Below, one piece after another: positions 13,174-19,171 of a DNA stretch of 64,000 nt. A model generated the notes under the pieces. The model did no database searches. It saw nothing but the letters and a program-made list of their open reading frames with translations, and was not told where the DNA came from. The stretch covers positions 1,736,001-1,800,000 of the forward strand of contig NZ_CP099966.1 in assembly GCF_025403485.1 (NCBI RefSeq). The letters are read 5' to 3'. Numbering within the stretch: position 1 is the first letter of the stretch; every line of letters starts with the position of its first letter. The stretch is from Chryseobacterium paludis. Its GTDB lineage: Bacteria; Bacteroidota; Bacteroidia; Flavobacteriales; Weeksellaceae. The translations under genes and the position numbers were made by a program.

Positions 13174-13512
13174 TCAGATCTTGTCTTCTACAATCACCTT
13201 CCGATGCTCTCTACCCCAATTGATCATTTCCATTATAATTTTCCCAAAGGTTCTGCAATAATCTGTAGGTATATATTCAATTAGAACCGGAGTATCCGGA
13301 TACACATTTCTCGTCACCAGTTTATTGAGTTCCATATCTTTCAGTTCCTTTGAAAGCATTCTTGTGGTGATGCCGGGAATACTGCGCTCAATTTCACGGA
13401 AGCGTCGGTTACCATTACAAATCGCATTGATTACCGGAATCCGCCATTTACCCCCTATAAAATATAGGGTATCCTGCAGTGCTCTTAATTCTTCTGTCTG
13501 ATCTCTTTCCAT
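13174..13512 (-). CDS. HxlR family transcriptional regulator
   Basis: A 112-residue winged-helix HxlR/DUF24 protein: LYFIGGKWRIPVINAI at the first helix, RRFREIERSIPGITTRMLS as the recognition region, and LVTRNVYPDTPVLIEY as the wing. The frame is open for 20 more codons upstream, but those run through the divergent promoter region, so the ATG at 13512 (MERDQTEEL) is chosen. It is divergent from an SDR gene and probably regulates it and itself, the usual arrangement for this family. Confidence 0.9.
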   Translation of the reverse strand: MERDQTEELRALQDTLYFIGGKWRIPVINAICNGNRRFREIERSIPGITTRMLSKELKDMELNKLVTRNVYPDTPVLIEYIPTDYCRTFGKIIMEMINWGREHRKVIVEDKI

Positions 13513-13552
13513 TTTGTAAAAATTAAGTTGATATACTCTGTGATACTGATTA

Positions 13553-13586
13553 CAAAAGTATACCATTTTCACTATAACTTTGTCAA
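13553..13586 (-). promoter_or_regulatory. Promoter of the HxlR gene
   Basis: On the minus strand TTGAC (13582-13586), 21 bp, then TACTTTTG (13553-13560): a good match to the Bacteroidota -33/-7 pattern. It predicts transcription starting near 13546 and so supports the internal start codon at 13512. Confidence 0.6.
13575..13582 (+). promoter_or_regulatory. -7 promoter box of the divergent SDR gene
   Basis: TAACTTTG, 16 bp before the ATG at 13599. It overlaps the -33 region of the opposite HxlR promoter, so the two promoters lie face to face on about 35 bp. Confidence 0.5.
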
Positions 13587-13598
13587 AAATTTTAAGAA

Positions 13599-14345
13599 AT
13601 GAATAAATTTAACAACAAACTGGCTATCGTAACCGGTGGAAATAGTGGAATCGGATATGCAACAGCAAAAGAATTAATTGCGGAAGGAGCAAAAGTAATT
13701 ATTACCGGAAGAAGAAAGGAAGCCATAGACAAAGCAGCAGCAGAGTTAGGAGCAGTCGGATTTGTTTCTGATCAGGGAAAATTAGAAGATATCTCTTTAT
13801 TGAAAAAAGAAGTTGAGGATCAATATGGAAAAGTGGATATTCTATTTATCAACGCTGGAATTACAGGAACATTAACCTCTATTGAAAACATGAATGTTGA
13901 AAATTTTGACAGTGTAATGGATATTAACTTCAGAGGTGCTTACTTTACGCTGAGTCAGTTTATTCCTACATTAAATGATGGAGCGTCTGTCGTGTTTTTA
14001 TCATCAATTGTAGCGGCTACACATAATCCAAACAGTTCGATCTATCAAGCCAGTAAAGCGGCACTAAACTCCATTGCAAAAACAGCAGCTGCAGAATTAG
14101 CACCAAGAAAGATCAGAGTAAATATGGTAAGTCCCGGGCCTACAAAAACAGAAATAATGAATAAAGCAGGACTTGATGATGTTACCTTACAAAATATTCA
14201 GGAGCGCCTGATCAATGAAATTCCATTAAAAAAAATGGGAACTGCTGAAGATGTTGCCAAACTTGTAAGCTACTTATCTGATGACAGCATATCAAGTTTT
14301 ATTACAGGTACTGAAATCATCGTTGATGGCGGAATGGTTTTATAA
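13599..14345 (+). CDS. SDR family oxidoreductase
   Basis: A 248-residue classical SDR. TGGNSGIG at residues 12-19 binds NAD(P), FINAGITG follows, the catalytic Ser is in VVFLSSIVA, the YQASK active-site motif and PGPTKTE follow, and the end is the usual FITGTEIIVDGGM. It is divergent from the HxlR regulator, a pairing common for stress- or electrophile-inducible oxidoreductases. Substrate unknown. A long perfect inverted repeat follows as terminator. Confidence 0.9.
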   Translation: MNKFNNKLAIVTGGNSGIGYATAKELIAEGAKVIITGRRKEAIDKAAAELGAVGFVSDQGKLEDISLLKKEVEDQYGKVDILFINAGITGTLTSIENMNVENFDSVMDINFRGAYFTLSQFIPTLNDGASVVFLSSIVAATHNPNSSIYQASKAALNSIAKTAAAELAPRKIRVNMVSPGPTKTEIMNKAGLDDVTLQNIQERLINEIPLKKMGTAEDVAKLVSYLSDDSISSFITGTEIIVDGGMVL

Positions 14346-14397: not shown

Positions 14398-14422
14398 ATA
14401 ACTGAGGGATAAAAATTCTAGT

Positions 14423-14490
14423 TTCACCCTTTAAATTGTCCGGTTCACCATTCTTTACATTTCATCATTCTGAACCAGTATCTACTTTTG
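14423..14490 (+). promoter_or_regulatory. LytTR-type direct-repeat operator and -7 box ahead of the heme-protein operon
   Basis: TTCACC at 14423-14428 and again at 14444-14449, exactly 21 bp apart, each inside a GTTCAC/TTTCAC context, then TACTTTTG (-7) at 14483-14490, 39 bp after the second repeat. The spacing and the GTTNA core resemble LytTR/AgrA-type sites. The same layout recurs at 17853-17920. Confidence 0.6.
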
Positions 14491-14510
14491 AACCATAAAA
14501 TAAAACGATT

Positions 14511-15503
14511 ATGGATTCAGTAAAGAAAAAGAGAACAATAAAACCTATAGCTATACTATTCATAGCGATCCTGGGAACCTTTGCAGGACTGCAGCTTTTC
14601 AATCCACCACTCGAAGGTAAACCTGTAACCGGTACCATTGAAGCGCCTCGTGAAGTGATCTCTATCTTAGAAAGATCTTGCTTCAATTGTCATTCTAATG
14701 AGCAAAAACTCAGTTGGTATGATAAAATTGCTCCTCTATCATGGGCCGTAAAAAAAGATGTGGAAAGGGCGAGAGAAGTAATGAATTTTTCAGAATGGTC
14801 GCAGCTTTCTCCAGGAGAACACAAAGGAAGAATGTATTCCATCCTAAACATGATGCAGGCCGGAAAGATGCCTCTTCATGAATATACTTTGCTACACTCA
14901 TCAGCAAAGATTTCCAGTAAAGATATTGAAGTGATCAGAAAATATACTTTATCTCTTTCCGGAAAAAATCCCACTCCAATAAATAAAAAAATTAATGATC
15001 CACATCAGGATATAAAACAGGCTTCCGCAGGTTATCCGGGTTTTCCTGTGTCACCCAACGGAGTTCGTTATACACCTGAATTTAAAAAATGGAAAGTCAT
15101 CAGCATGAGTACGTTGTTCGACAATTCCATTCGTGTGATCTATGGAAACAATATTGCTGTTAAAGCTGTAGAAACTGATAACTTTCATCCATGGCCAGAT
15201 GGCAGTATTGTGGTAAAAGCAGTATTTAAACAAACCGAATCCGCTGACGGAGAAATAAGACCTGGTGAATTTATTAACGCTCAGTTTATGGTAAAAGATG
15301 CAAAAAAATATACCGATACGGAAGGCTGGGGATTTGCTAAATTTTCCGGAAAAGATCTTCATCCGACAGGAAAAACAGCATCATTTGCAAAGGAGTCATG
15401 TATTGCCTGTCATCGCCAATTGGCAGAACCTACAGGATACCTATTCGATGTTCCCATGAAAGTAAACACAAAAAATCTAATCGAAAAATTACAGAAAAAA
15501 TGA
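14511..15503 (+). CDS. Membrane-anchored heme protein (Haem_bd plus cytochrome P460-like)
   Basis: A 330-residue protein with one N-terminal membrane anchor (about residues 11-30). A c-type heme site CFNCH (57-61) lies in a heme-binding domain (SWYDKIAPLSWAVKKDVERA), followed by a P460-type domain (FKKWKVISMSTLF, IYGNNIAVKAV, GWGFAKFSG) that ends in a second heme motif CIACH (297-301). The chain is exported and presumably anchored in the inner membrane facing the periplasm. P460 proteins oxidise hydroxylamine or detoxify nitrogen species in some bacteria; the role here is not known. Its stop overlaps the next start (ATGA). Confidence 0.85.
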   Translation: MDSVKKKRTIKPIAILFIAILGTFAGLQLFNPPLEGKPVTGTIEAPREVISILERSCFNCHSNEQKLSWYDKIAPLSWAVKKDVERAREVMNFSEWSQLSPGEHKGRMYSILNMMQAGKMPLHEYTLLHSSAKISSKDIEVIRKYTLSLSGKNPTPINKKINDPHQDIKQASAGYPGFPVSPNGVRYTPEFKKWKVISMSTLFDNSIRVIYGNNIAVKAVETDNFHPWPDGSIVVKAVFKQTESADGEIRPGEFINAQFMVKDAKKYTDTEGWGFAKFSGKDLHPTGKTASFAKESCIACHRQLAEPTGYLFDVPMKVNTKNLIEKLQKK

Positions 15504-15943
15504 AAAATATAAACATCGCTTTTTTAGCAATTTTCTTCCTTTTAACGGCATGTAAAAATGAAGATCCCAATAAAGATCATGTACGTCTGGTGTTTGATGC
15601 AGGTCATCTTAAATTTATCGGTTCTTCATTAAACAAAAAGAAAGAAACCATGTCTGCTTTGTATGGAAACAACCAGGCACTGCTATCGCTATCAAAGAAG
15701 AAAACTCAACCGGAAGCAGGAACTAAAATGAAACTTGTCACCTGGAAGTATCATGAAAATCCACAGTACACCGGCGGAACCATCACAGGTGAATTGCTGA
15801 GTATAGAAACTGTTGAAACGAATGCCAAGGGAGAGACATCATATCATAAGGATAACAGTTCTACTAAAGGAAATACCCAATCCTTTGACAAAGAACAAAG
15901 AATACAATATATGCTGGGTTATCAACCCGTCGTTATGCCCTAA
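15500..15943 (+). CDS. Putative lipoprotein of unknown function
   Basis: A 147-residue protein with an SPII signal (AIFFLLTAC) and no recognisable domain. The ATG at 15500 overlaps the stop of the heme-protein gene in an ATGA junction, so translation is coupled. A longer frame upstream would read through the heme gene's 3' end and has no domain support. It probably acts in the same envelope process as the heme protein. Confidence 0.75.
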   Translation: MKNINIAFLAIFFLLTACKNEDPNKDHVRLVFDAGHLKFIGSSLNKKKETMSALYGNNQALLSLSKKKTQPEAGTKMKLVTWKYHENPQYTGGTITGELLSIETVETNAKGETSYHKDNSSTKGNTQSFDKEQRIQYMLGYQPVVMP

Positions 15944-15965
15944 TTGAAAATAAAAATTATCAGGT

Positions 15966-15995
15966 AATCTGGGATTGAAATATCAGTCCCAGATT
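15966..15995 (+). terminator. Probable terminator after the heme-protein operon
   Basis: AATCTGGGA / TCCCAGATT arms around a 12-base loop, followed by an AT-rich run. It separates this operon from the kinase gene. Confidence 0.6.
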
Positions 15996-16058
15996 ATATT
16001 TATTAAAGTATTATGATTAAAAAATATTAATTTAACATTTTTAAAACCTACCTTCTTA

Positions 16059-17072
16059 ATGCATCAGGAAAAAATAAAAATATCGCAGGCTGTCATCTGG
16101 ATAAGCTCCATTTTTTTAGGGATCCTATCGTCAGTTCCCCAGCTTGCTTCTCACGACTTCAATCTCATGGAAGCTGTAGTGAACGCAGCCATTACCTCAG
16201 CTTTTGCGGTAGTCATGTGGTACCTCAACATCTTCCTGCTCAACCGCAACAAAAAAAGACGCCAGGGAATTTCTTACTCCAGGCTATTAGTGGTACTGGC
16301 ATTGGGTATGGTGGTCATGTTTGCATTGGCATGGGTACAACAATTAATTTTATCCCACATCAACTTTGGTCCTGTCATGCTGATGGTAGAAGTCAGAGGG
16401 ATTCTGATCAACCTTGTTTTCTATATGTTTTTAAATCTTGTTCAGCATAATTATACCGGCCAGCAAGTTCATTTGGAATTAGAAAAAGTAAAAAGTGATA
16501 ACCTGGGTGCTCAATATGAATTACTTAAACAACAGGTGAACCCTCACTTTCTTTTCAATAGTTTAAATACACTGAAGTCTATGGTGGAAACGCATGATGA
16601 GGAAACTGTTGATTTTATTATTAAGCTTTCCGATTTCTATCGTTTTACTCTGGAAAGCAGAAAGCTTGATCTAATCACAGTAGAGGAAGAAATGAAAATA
16701 TTAAACTCTTATCTTTTTCTTCAAAAAGCCCGATTTGGTGATGGTTTTACTTTTACCGATACATTGGATAAAGACACTTTAAAGACACTTATTCCGCCTT
16801 TCACTTTGCAGCTATTAGTGGAAAACTGTATCAAGCATAATATTGTTTCACAAAGTAAACCTTTACATATTAAGATATATGACGCAAACGATAAGATTAT
16901 TATTGAAAACCCTATTCAGCGTAAAATGATTCCTGAAGATTCTTTAGGTGTTGGCTTAAACAATGTTAATATGCGTTACAAACACTTATTAGATCAGGAA
17001 ATTGACATTACAGACAACAATCAAATTTTTCAAATAAAACTACCTTTTATCCATGAATATCATCATCATTGA
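16059..17072 (+). CDS. LytS-type sensor histidine kinase
   Basis: A 337-residue kinase. Four predicted membrane helices occupy residues about 8-125, followed by a coiled linker, then the His_kinase segment QQVNPHFLFNSLNTL with the phospho-acceptor His163, and an ATPase domain with LQLLVENCIKHN (N box) and GVGLNNVNMRY (G box). No periplasmic sensor domain, so it probably senses within the membrane. It overlaps the regulator gene by 20 bp, the standard LytS/LytTR pairing. Confidence 0.93.
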   Translation: MHQEKIKISQAVIWISSIFLGILSSVPQLASHDFNLMEAVVNAAITSAFAVVMWYLNIFLLNRNKKRRQGISYSRLLVVLALGMVVMFALAWVQQLILSHINFGPVMLMVEVRGILINLVFYMFLNLVQHNYTGQQVHLELEKVKSDNLGAQYELLKQQVNPHFLFNSLNTLKSMVETHDEETVDFIIKLSDFYRFTLESRKLDLITVEEEMKILNSYLFLQKARFGDGFTFTDTLDKDTLKTLIPPFTLQLLVENCIKHNIVSQSKPLHIKIYDANDKIIIENPIQRKMIPEDSLGVGLNNVNMRYKHLLDQEIDITDNNQIFQIKLPFIHEYHHH

Positions 17073-17820
17073 AGACGAATTCAGAGCGGCAAAATCACTG
17101 CAGAATTTAATCAAAGAATTAAAACCTGAATCTACAATTACCGGAGTTTATGACAGTATAGAATCCAGTGTAGAAGCTTTATCCCAAGGTAACAAACCCG
17201 ATCTTATCTTTATGGATATCCATCTGTCGGACGGGCTTTCTTTTGAAATTTTCAAACAGGTTGACATCACCTGCCCGGTGGTCTTTTGTACCGCATTTGA
17301 TCAATATATGCTGGATGCTTTTAAAAGCAAAGGGGTTGATTATGTTTTAAAGCCATTTTCACGGGATGACATTGCTGAAGCTTTAAGAAAAGTTGACGAG
17401 TTGAAAAAATTTTTCCAAAAGACAGAAATTCCTGAACTGGAAGCTATTTTACAAAAAATAAATCAGCCTCAAGCTTCTACTAAAAGTAGTTTCCTTGTTT
17501 TTAAAAATCAAAAATACACTACGATACTCACAGAAAATATTGCCTATTTCTATATTCATAATGAAATGACCCATCTGGTTACTTTTGATAAACAGCAGTT
17601 TTCACTCACCCAATCATTGGGTCAGGTGGCAGAACTTGTTTCTCCTAAACAGTTTTTTAGAGTAAACAGACAGTATATCGTTAATTTCACAGCCATTAAA
17701 GAAATGGAACATTATTTCCAGCGTAAGATCTATGTTAAATTAGTCATTGACACTCCTGAAAAGCTTCTTATCAATAAAGAAAAAACACATAGCTTTTTCT
17801 CCTGGCTAGAAGACCGGTAA
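17053..17820 (+). CDS. LytTR-type response regulator
   Basis: A 255-residue regulator. The receiver domain (1-120) has the acidic pair E7/D8, the phospho-acceptor Asp55 (FMDIHLSDG) and KPF near 108-110; the LytTR DNA-binding domain occupies about 145-255 (FFRVNRQYIVNF). LytTR domains bind pairs of short direct repeats about 21 bp apart. Such pairs occur ahead of both neighbouring operons (14423 and 17853), which makes those the likely targets. Confidence 0.95.
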   Translation: MNIIIIEDEFRAAKSLQNLIKELKPESTITGVYDSIESSVEALSQGNKPDLIFMDIHLSDGLSFEIFKQVDITCPVVFCTAFDQYMLDAFKSKGVDYVLKPFSRDDIAEALRKVDELKKFFQKTEIPELEAILQKINQPQASTKSSFLVFKNQKYTTILTENIAYFYIHNEMTHLVTFDKQQFSLTQSLGQVAELVSPKQFFRVNRQYIVNFTAIKEMEHYFQRKIYVKLVIDTPEKLLINKEKTHSFFSWLEDR

Positions 17821-17852
17821 TTGCTCAAATCTTAAACTTATTTTTTTCAGGG

Positions 17853-17920
17853 TTCACCTTTCTATTTGTCTGGTTGAGCCCTTTTTTCATTTTTTAACAT
17901 CACTCAGGTATCTACTTTTG
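17853..17920 (+). promoter_or_regulatory. LytTR-type direct-repeat operator and -7 box ahead of the DUF1223 operon
   Basis: GTTCACC (TTCACC at 17853-17858) and GTTGAGC (TTGAGC at 17874-17879), 21 bp apart, then TACTTTTG at 17913-17920, 39 bp after the second repeat. The 15 bases around the -7 box (17908-17922) are identical to those at 14478-14492. Confidence 0.6.
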
Positions 17921-17936
17921 AATAAAATTAAAAGAA

Positions 17937-18716
17937 ATGATATCTAAAAAACTATTGATAGTAGGTGTATTTGTCGCTTTACTATTTACAATTTCTGCAT
18001 TTGTGCAAAAAGATAAGACTAACGAAAACTTTAAAAACATTCCGATTGGAAATAATGGTGGTTTTGCAGTCTTAGAATTATTTACTTCTGAAGGATGCTC
18101 AAGCTGCCCTCCTGCAGATGCTTTAATGGGACAGATTAAGGAAAGCAGCAAAGATCAGCCTGTGTACATCTTGGCCTATCATGTTGATTATTGGAACCGT
18201 CTTGGTTGGAAGGATCGGTTCAGTACTCCAGAAAACTCTGAACGTCAGCAACAATACAGCAGGCTACTAGGTTCTCAGGTTTATACTCCACAACTTGTTA
18301 TCAATGGCAGACAGCAGTTTGTAGGATCAGATAGAGCAGCCGTTGAAAACTCTATTGTTAAAGCCTTAAGTAGTACTGGTGGCAGTATAATAGATCTGAA
18401 AGCTCAATCTGATTCTAAAGCAATCAGTGTTGCCTATAAAGTCTCAGAAAGCAATACTCAAAACAAACTACTGATCACATTGGTAGAGAAGAAATCTTCT
18501 ACTAACGTAGCAAGAGGAGAAAATGAAGGCCGACATTTAGAACACTGGCAGATCGTTCATCAACAAAATCAAATTTCTTTAAAAAGCAGTTCTGAAGGCA
18601 GTTCCAGCTTCCCGTTACCTAAGGATTTTAATATCAACAATTGGGAGATCATAGGATTTATTCAAAATGCAAGAACAGGACAGATTTCGGGAGCTTCAAA
18701 AGCTATATTTCAATAA
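17937..18716 (+). CDS. DUF1223 family exported thioredoxin-fold protein
   Basis: A 259-residue protein with an N-terminal signal anchor (about residues 5-22) and a DUF1223 core: LELFTSEGCSSCPPADALM with the Cys54-x-x-Cys57 pair, YHVDYWNRLGWKDRFS, and YTPQLVINGRQQFVGS. The family is thioredoxin-like and exported, and its substrate is unknown. First gene of a two-gene unit with the DoxX-like gene, under the second LytTR-type promoter. A periplasmic thiol role is an inference. Confidence 0.9.
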   Translation: MISKKLLIVGVFVALLFTISAFVQKDKTNENFKNIPIGNNGGFAVLELFTSEGCSSCPPADALMGQIKESSKDQPVYILAYHVDYWNRLGWKDRFSTPENSERQQQYSRLLGSQVYTPQLVINGRQQFVGSDRAAVENSIVKALSSTGGSIIDLKAQSDSKAISVAYKVSESNTQNKLLITLVEKKSSTNVARGENEGRHLEHWQIVHQQNQISLKSSSEGSSSFPLPKDFNINNWEIIGFIQNARTGQISGASKAIFQ

Positions 18717-18769: not shown

Positions 18770-19171
18770 ATGAAAACAAAAACAACAAAAATCATCTATT
18801 GGTCAGGAGCAATTTTTATGTCATTATGGTTTGGAACAAGTGGTATATTTGAACTCATTAAAAGTCCGTTTGTATGGGATATTACTTTACAACTTGGCTA
18901 TCCCCCGCATTTTATTTATATACTGGGAGTCTTCAAAGTTTTAGGAGTTATCGTACTTTTAGTTCCCAATAAGCTATTAAGATTAAAAGAATGGGTATTC
19001 GCCGGAATGTTTTTCGATATTACCTTCGCTTTCTTTTCTAAAATTGCAGTTATTGGATTTCCATCTACCATCGATGCTATTATAGCGTTTACCGTTCTGT
19101 CTATAACGTATTTTATGTTTAGAAAAATTTACAGTTCTGAACTGGTTCTTAATGAGGTTAAATTTAATTAA
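18770..19171 (+). CDS. DoxX family membrane protein
   Basis: A 133-residue polytopic protein with four predicted helices; IIYWSGAIFMSLWFGTSGIF and YILGVFKVLGVIVLLVPN are typical of the DoxX-like family (PF13564 type). Some DoxX members work with thiol- or sulfur-related partners in the membrane. It lies 53 bp behind DUF1223 and before a strong terminator, so it closes the LytTR-linked operon. Confidence 0.85.
   Translation: MKTKTTKIIYWSGAIFMSLWFGTSGIFELIKSPFVWDITLQLGYPPHFIYILGVFKVLGVIVLLVPNKLLRLKEWVFAGMFFDITFAFFSKIAVIGFPSTIDAIIAFTVLSITYFMFRKIYSSELVLNEVKFN

Follow-up and report, generated by a model that had tools for sequence, protein, structure and literature searches.

Paired direct repeats at two promoters around a LytS/LytTR gene pair of Chryseobacterium paludis: predicted targets of a two-component system and a probable detoxification regulon

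What joins two operons that share one promoter layout to the regulatory genes lying between them? The question is raised by a 64-kb stretch of the Chryseobacterium paludis genome (positions 1736001-1800000 of a single 5.05-Mb contig; the whole stretch is called the window below). In it, promoter A, upstream of an operon for haem-binding/P460 proteins, and promoter B, upstream of a DUF1223-DoxX operon, stand on either side of genes for a LytS-type histidine kinase and a LytTR response regulator. We propose that A and B are predicted targets of the LytS/LytTR system encoded between them and that this system would activate a wider detoxification regulon, a reading which the sequences compared here make highly probable. 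The direct evidence consists of the geometry of the sites, their conservation, their co-occurrence with the LytTR orthologue and the gene content of the loci.

A preliminary description, made from the DNA of the window by itself, had drawn attention to the geometry, and its measurements are confirmed almost throughout. At promoter A, TTCACC stands at 14423 and again at 14444, 21 base pairs (bp) further on, with TTGTC at 14436 (13 bp past the first repeat start) and the -7 box TACTTTTG 39 bp past 14444. At promoter B the same distances separate TTCACC at 17853, TTGAGC at 17874 (21 bp), TTGTC at 17866 (13 bp) and TACTTTTG, 39 bp past 17874. The 15 identical bases described around the two boxes read GTATCTACTTTTGAA, and coordinates and Pfam matches place the LytS and LytTR genes between the two operons. 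The absence of such repeats before the kinase gene (start 16059) also stands: none was found in the gap by a repeat-pair scan of the window at up to 2 mismatches, which gave 7 matches against 2.84 expected. Only the GTTNA core ascribed to every repeat needs correction, as it is present in three of the four and replaced by TTTCA, in register, in the first repeat of A. The -33 element, judged by the generally known consensus, seems to be missing, with no TTG between repeat and box in the sequence of either promoter. Since many relatives have TTTTG between repeat and box at B, this is weak evidence for activation.

The layout is rare in the genome. The pattern KTTSASC-N7-TTGTCYGGTTSASC finds A and B at 0 mismatches and 3 other places, all at 3, with 1 match in the reversed control. 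The pattern TTGTCYGGTTNANC-N33-TANNTTTG finds A and B at 0 mismatches, 2 further places at 2 and 14 at 3; because these 18 matches compare with 16 in the reversed control, only the 0-mismatch level is informative for this pattern. A and B are the sole sites in the 5.05-Mb genome with 0-1 mismatch to either tested pattern, and random-level occurrence, which would have told against the preliminary description, was not what the search returned. These whole-genome statements come from pattern searches, by which weaker sites may be missed. Matches of this single-repeat pattern at 3 mismatches, being at control level, were left out of account, and a two-repeat match at 1209456 of the same genome was dropped, as it was not recovered with the box.

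Conservation was followed in loci that carry the regulator, of which 301 were found and 80 kept (44 from Chryseobacterium and 36 from more distant Bacteroidota). In the 44 Chryseobacterium loci, where the best placement was sought in about 260 bp upstream of each gene, the proximal repeat and box of the DUF1223 promoter show no more than 1 mismatch in 43, the remaining locus having 3. Those of the haem/P460 promoter are found with at most 2 mismatches in 36 of the 44 and at most 4 in 42, the other two having 5 and 6. At both promoters the columns of TTGTC are 97-100% identical, those of the box 92-100% and those of TTSA/TTCA in the repeats about 69-100%. The genus consensus of promoter A reads AAATTCCnnATTCACC - N5 - ATTTGTCCGGTTCACC - N33 - TACTTTTG. 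Between repeat and box, A and B each contain a different conserved block, TTTCA at A (93-100%, the remainder mostly 30-70%) and TATTCTTTTGC at B (70-100%), and these blocks are possibly the -33 region. In orthologous loci the repeats are retained together with the genes, so the loss of repeats that might have undone the earlier proposal was not seen.

The 36 distant loci come from Mucilaginibacter, Pedobacter, Chitinophaga, Flavobacterium and others, and their LytTR proteins are 63-70% identical to that of the window. Scored with a weight matrix built from the Chryseobacterium sites, these loci yield 52 sites against 0.5 expected (a single match when every strand was randomised twice at first order), with at least one site in 30 of the 36. 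Both repeats are frequently complete here (TTGTCTNNTTCA ... TTGTCCGGTTCA). Sites accompany DUF1223 genes placed on the opposite strand in L087, L091, L094, L100 and L104 and opposite-strand DoxX genes in L115, L120 and L122. The DoxX gene has its own site in 9/36 loci, although the box scores poorly in three of them (L096, L097, L098), and many other sites sit upstream of alpha/beta-hydrolase-like frames. Unlike in the window, the kinase gene itself carries a site in 5/36 (L087, L105, L108, L116, L122), and the expectation that sites would be limited to the two operons fails on this count.

Co-occurrence ties the sites to the regulator. Among 148 genomes of the genus, including a second genome of the window's species (G120), 66 have a match to the regulator at E <= 1e-60, and in 62 of those its identity is at least 80%. 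A site with at most 1 mismatch is present in all 62 of these orthologue genomes and in 3 of the 86 others, namely G056, in which the regulator gene is divided between two contig ends, and G090 and G130, each of which has a single site. Put by site, 119 of 121 fall in 63 genomes (the 62 and G056), against 1 in the reversed control; some of the 121 look like unrelated conserved matches (for example G076:C9, G131:C58, G106:C5 and G055:C34) and were kept in the counts. A genus search at 2 mismatches was not used for counting, as the unrelated conserved stretch TTGTCTAATTTATCC... dominates among the matches listed. A near-identical 55-bp stretch, TTGTCTAATTTATCCTGTAAACTATTAAACAT...TATAGGTTTG, occurs in many genomes of the genus (e.g. 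G017:C3:982410-982464, L141) and was not counted as a LytTR site. DUF1223 follows the regulator too, being present at E <= 1e-20 in 62/62 orthologue genomes and in G042 and G056. Across 296 genomes of the phylum, 7 have the orthologue at E <= 1e-70. With up to 3 mismatches allowed, the two-repeat pattern with box gives 34 matches in 19 genomes (3 in the reversed control), and the 7 account for 21 of the 34; at up to 2 mismatches, 12 of 13 sites lie in the 7, G285 being the exception. Ten of these 12 are within about 6 kb of the orthologue, and the 2 distant ones are both in the window's genome.

These distant sites bear on how large the regulon is. In the window's genome the full layout is found, with 2 mismatches each, 120 bp (pattern start to ATG) upstream of an alpha/beta-hydrolase (abH) gene at 3256126 and 117 bp upstream of an epoxide hydrolase gene near 835552. 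A weaker layout with 3 mismatches lies 103 bp upstream of a second hydrolase gene near 257433. With two, and probably three, distant genes in possession of the full layout, the regulon is not the "compact" one, limited to two operons, that was first suggested. Distant sites in other Chryseobacterium genomes were chosen by eye rather than exhaustively. In 9 of the 13 stretches read (L171-L180, L188-L190), an abH, Ohr, abH2 or epoxide hydrolase (EHN) frame lies downstream of the site; L190 has only a short abH-like frame, and L179 and L180 (from G090 and G130, which have no orthologue) and L189 have none. G003, a genome with no match to the orthologue, also has sites (L186). No LytS/LytTR match at E <= 1e-5 was found in any of ten 20-kb stretches around distant sites (L191-L199, L203), nor was one found in the shorter stretches L235 and L236. 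By family, the targets include Ohr (TIGR03561, above cut-off), epoxide hydrolase (PF06441), alpha/beta-hydrolases and a cupin.

What is scattered in one genome is found together in another. In 5/5 genomes of another family within the order (G167, G171, G319, G351, G366), abH, Ohr, DUF1223, LytS, LytTR and DoxX are clustered with sites, and the epoxide hydrolase joins the cluster in one of them (G319). In G042, of the same genus and with a regulator of 54% identity, genes for a short-chain dehydrogenase/reductase, epoxide hydrolases, DUF1223, haem/P460, abH, DoxX, LytS, Ohr and abH2 stand together. Genes that are targets at a distance in one genome thus belong to the cluster in another, which is independent support for the regulon. 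Homologues of abH (E <= 1e-90) occur in 39/148 genomes, 38 of them within the 62 and one in G042. Among the 12 closest (76-100% identity), 11 have a site, 6 by the strict pattern (at most 4 mismatches) and 5 by weight-matrix scores of 26.8-36.2; the twelfth (G131) directly follows a frame that resembles, by eye, the final part of an epoxide hydrolase.

Other classes of LytTR regulator have repeats of their own. A class of 49-51% identity to the window's regulator (L184, L201, L290, L291) goes with TTGTCAGATTCA / TTGTCCGATTGA repeats at haem/P460 paralogues; one of 43-44% (L202 and L292, whose upstream DNA is near-identical) with GAACGTTTAAAG / GAACGTTTCAAC; and one sharing mainly the DNA-binding domain (L200, L285-L288, L289 deviating) with TTCGCTTTyA / TTTCCCTTTyA. 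The period was examined by the best 12-base self-match at lags 13-44 (32 lags), a test made on related class members and without shuffles, and lag 21 ranks 1/32 both at promoter A and in each of the three other classes (n = 5, 2 and 6). By eye, the TTGTCAGATTCA/TTGTCCGATTGA and TTCGCTTTyA/TTTCCCTTTyA classes keep the spacing between repeats and box, and on the latter class the strict pattern gives 8-9 mismatches, which is shuffle level. At haem/P460 paralogue promoters of orthologue-free genomes, no such layout was found in 3 of the 8 tested (L278, L279, L283). Subject to these limits, the best evidence here that LytTR proteins may read the repeats is the way in which regulator class and repeat go together. 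The geometry and its link to the adjoining regulator, both asserted in the preliminary description, are backed by the co-occurrence and by the 21-bp repeats of these other classes. In the window's genome, a second haem/P460 pair (G000:C1:2241493-2243697; L200, 8123-10695) is divergent from a LytTR-domain gene, and its promoter carries different direct repeats of 21-bp period, TTCGCTTTCA / TTTCCCTTTTA, which stand as far from the -7 box as those of A and B. The LytTR classes beside haem/P460 paralogues form a natural series for decoding LytTR specificity.

The proteins themselves are of a familiar kind. The regulator has receiver and LytTR domains above cut-off, a conserved Asp and a PF06580 partner kinase, and, as is typical of LytTR-type promoters, the promoter proper is preceded by two direct repeats, each about 9 bp long, that recur with a 21-bp period. 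Residue D55 of the regulator, the candidate phospho-acceptor, is invariant in 30/30 aligned sequences (the window and 29 of the 80 loci), and the NPHF box of the kinase in 20/20 (the window and 19 of the 80). Across the same 20 kinases, from several Bacteroidota orders, W14, SSVP 24-27, E38, N42, QQLIL 94-98, FGP 103-105 and EVRGILINL 111-119 of the N-terminal part are invariant; such long stretches suggest that the kinase may read one conserved signal at the membrane. The LytTR gene of Chryseobacterium sp. ISL-6 shows 100% identity to the window's, and at E <= 0.001 the regulator has 18 additional matches in the window's genome. Solved structures align, among the matches listed, to the receiver part of the regulator, and the DNA-binding domain searched alone gave no solved-structure match.

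NCBIfam names neither kinase nor regulator above any cut-off. The first match of the regulator is LytR of the Gram-positive LytSR system (NF010684, 94 bits), with which it shares domain order; however, the cut-off of 375 is missed, and the present kinase matches only PF06580 in Pfam. The second is BtsR of Escherichia coli, at 76 bits against a cut-off of 246. BtsR and YpdB of E. coli each pair a LytTR regulator with a LytS-type kinase, but their sites and targets differ from the present ones. AgrA, at the P2/P3 promoters of Staphylococcus aureus, is likewise a LytTR response regulator and binds two direct repeats ahead of the promoter, their centre lying at about -60 (PMC4227749); the A and B repeat pairs are centred about 52 bp ahead of the box start, near that distance. 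AgrA differs in phylum, half-site and targets, and no quorum-sensing genes were recognised among the genes examined here. The LytTR Regulatory Systems share the LytTR DNA-binding domain but are presented as a separate sensory class, unlike the kinase and response regulator described here (PMC6193735).

From these comparisons we infer binding, activation over repression, phosphotransfer, signal and physiological role, as follows. The membrane kinase would sense a signal and phosphorylate Asp55 of the regulator. Two regulator monomers would then bind a half-site each, 21 bp apart on the same DNA face; the best form of the half-site is TTGTCCGGTTCACC, and in this genus the distal copy is degenerate. 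The bound pair, centred about 52 bp ahead of the -7 box, would recruit RNA polymerase to the TANNTTTG-box promoter. The predicted regulon would comprise haem/P460, DUF1223 and DoxX in cis and alpha/beta-hydrolases and the epoxide hydrolase in trans, joined in relatives by Ohr-type peroxide reductases. Its probable role is to render organic peroxides, epoxides or other reactive organics harmless, for the most part in the cell envelope.

Several observations weigh against this account. The distal repeat of A and B is so degenerate that neither promoter reaches the strict two-repeat pattern even with 3 mismatches allowed, and 8/44 haem/P460 promoters have at least 3 mismatches. Of the generally known LytTR half-site consensus [TA][AC][CA]GTTN[AG][TG], the GTT-N-A core fits three of the four window repeats and the flanks fit poorly. 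In the lag test at promoter B, 21 comes second, just below 23. Six of the 36 distant loci (L088, L092, L093, L111, L113, L118) have no site at the threshold. The majority of sites lie, by eye, in or near the LytTR cluster, and part of the co-occurrence is therefore common inheritance. Beyond the 12 closest, 26 further abH promoters were compared: L252 and L265 fit the strict pattern, and the other 24, at 7-12 mismatches, are at shuffle level. A related form, ATATGACCTGTTCA followed by TAATTTTA at 32-36 bp, is present in 22 of these 26 (L251-L276), by an expression framed post hoc and without control. Both in the window's genome and in G139, the epoxide hydrolase site is followed, after about 3.5 kb, by a remote LytS/LytTR pair with 24-26% identity (L234 9033-10504, L242 7645-9212). 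Lastly, G004 has TTGTCAGATTCA/TTGTCCGATTGA-type (class II) repeats before a haem/P460 gene (L185, 4565-5639), with no LytTR gene seen within 7.5 kb. The degenerate distal repeats, the remote pair and G004 have lowered our confidence a little, from one notch higher to a level that is still high. In L234 and L242, an Ohr gene is divergent from the epoxide hydrolase gene, and no site of its own was found.

Which other explanations could account for the same sites? The one that survives best overlaps with the reading just given: the system would be as described but would repress its targets, or would serve another theme, such as breaking down foreign signal molecules by exported hydrolases. Several of the downstream hydrolases do look exported by their N-termini (by eye). 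However, repeats placed upstream of the promoter at an AgrA-like distance count by analogy against repression, and Ohr, P460, epoxide hydrolase, DoxX and DUF1223 jointly fit detoxification; we consider this variant rather unlikely, though worth keeping in mind. Less probable still, and in our view doubtful, is that the conserved sites are bound by another regulator travelling with the cluster, for instance the HxlR-type one encoded at 13174-13572 or a LytTR paralogue. Its attraction is that the HxlR gene accompanies 41/44 Chryseobacterium loci and several distant ones, that the 18 further regulator matches in the window's genome are candidate binders, and that the remote pair lies so near the epoxide hydrolase site. 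However, L094, L095, L096, L101, L104 and L112 have sites but no HxlR match in the stretches examined, and a genome without the orthologue may be rich in candidate regulators and still lack a site (G234 has 55 first-look candidates). HxlR proteins bind inverted repeats, which also counts against that candidate. Recent copying of one promoter, leaving repeats without a regulatory role, is favoured by the 15 identical bases around the box, but it is contradicted by the separate consensus that A and B each keep in 44 loci, differing outside repeats and box, by the layout upstream of unrelated genes at distant places and by the sites of the distant loci, and we regard it as very nearly dismissed.

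The features of the cluster are collected in Table 1. The small P460-like gene adjoins the haem-binding/P460 gene in 44/44 Chryseobacterium loci, and the reading frames of kinase and regulator overlap by 20 bp. The hairpin ahead of the kinase gene is possibly a partial terminator setting the level of kinase and regulator; terminator and sigma-70-type promoter scans were both at shuffle level overall. The DUF1223 family has a thioredoxin-like fold (PMC3091736). Divergent HxlR-type regulator and short-chain dehydrogenase genes (together 13174-14345, the HxlR-type gene at 13174-13572) adjoin the cluster.

Table 1. Promoter elements and genes of the cluster, in window positions.
Feature	Position	Strand	Basis and remarks
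Promoter A, distal direct repeat AAATTCTAGTTTCACC	14413..14428	+	Genus consensus AAATTCCnnATTCACC; TTCACC columns 83-100% (42 loci)
Promoter A, proximal direct repeat AATTGTCCGGTTCACC	14434..14449	+	21 bp past distal; TTGTC columns 97-100% (42 loci)
Promoter A, -7 box TACTTTTG (TANNTTTG type)	14483..14490	+	33 bp past proximal repeat in loci fitting the pattern
Haem-binding domain and cytochrome P460 protein, 330 amino acids	14511..15503	+	Pfam PF14376 3.8e-35, PF16694 2.8e-28
Small P460-like protein, 147 amino acids	15500..15943	+	Overlaps the 330-amino-acid haem-binding/P460 gene; PF16694 0.0006, below cut-off; lipoprotein-like start by eye
Terminator-like hairpin, gap between operon A and kinase gene	15964..15997	+	15 pairs; z -4.6
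LytS-type histidine kinase, 337 amino acids	16059..17072	+	Pfam His_kinase PF06580 6.8e-26; no other Pfam match
LytTR response regulator, 255 amino acids	17053..17820	+	Pfam Response_reg PF00072 4.8e-13, LytTR PF04397 1e-14
Promoter B, distal direct repeat TTTTTCAGGGTTCACC	17843..17858	+	Genus consensus AATTTCCGGGTTCACC
Promoter B, proximal direct repeat ATTTGTCTGGTTGAGC	17864..17879	+	21 bp past distal
Promoter B, -7 box TACTTTTG	17913..17920	+	Sequence inspection and genus alignment
DUF1223 protein	17937..18716	+	Pfam PF06764 1.5e-56; CSSC motif by eye
DoxX-like protein	18770..19171	+	Pfam PF13564 6e-13; starts 53 bp past DUF1223

In the open-licence literature, judged mainly by titles and the starts of abstracts and by passages of PMC10197871, PMC10710014, PMC10057207 and PMC5395568, no paper was found that assigns targets or sites to a Bacteroidota LytTR regulator, and none on the present regulon. 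One of these papers reports mutations in a LytTR gene and a kinase gene (FJOH_RS09515, FJOH_RS09520) in evolved lines of Flavobacterium johnsoniae (PMC10197871). The system belongs to a known kind, the LytTR two-component systems, and this LytS/LytTR member and its predicted regulon appear to be new. More tentatively, and with slightly more doubt than belief on our part, LytTR activators of the Bacteroidota might share a common promoter grammar, with a fixed 21-bp period, a fixed distance to a TANNTTTG-like box in most classes and class-specific half-sites (TTGTCCGGTTCA, TTGTCCGATTGA, TTTCCCTTTCA), the GAACGTTTCA-repeat class lying nearer its box. On the same tentative footing, one such system would run a detoxification regulon across several Bacteroidota orders, with a membrane kinase reading one conserved lipophilic or reactive signal. 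With a site model and about five predicted target units, the system is directly testable and can serve as a model from which further LytTR systems of the phylum may be decoded by their half-sites. The predicted regulon would also tie families of unclear function (DUF1223, DoxX-like and Haem_bd/P460) to enzymes acting on hydroperoxides and epoxides.

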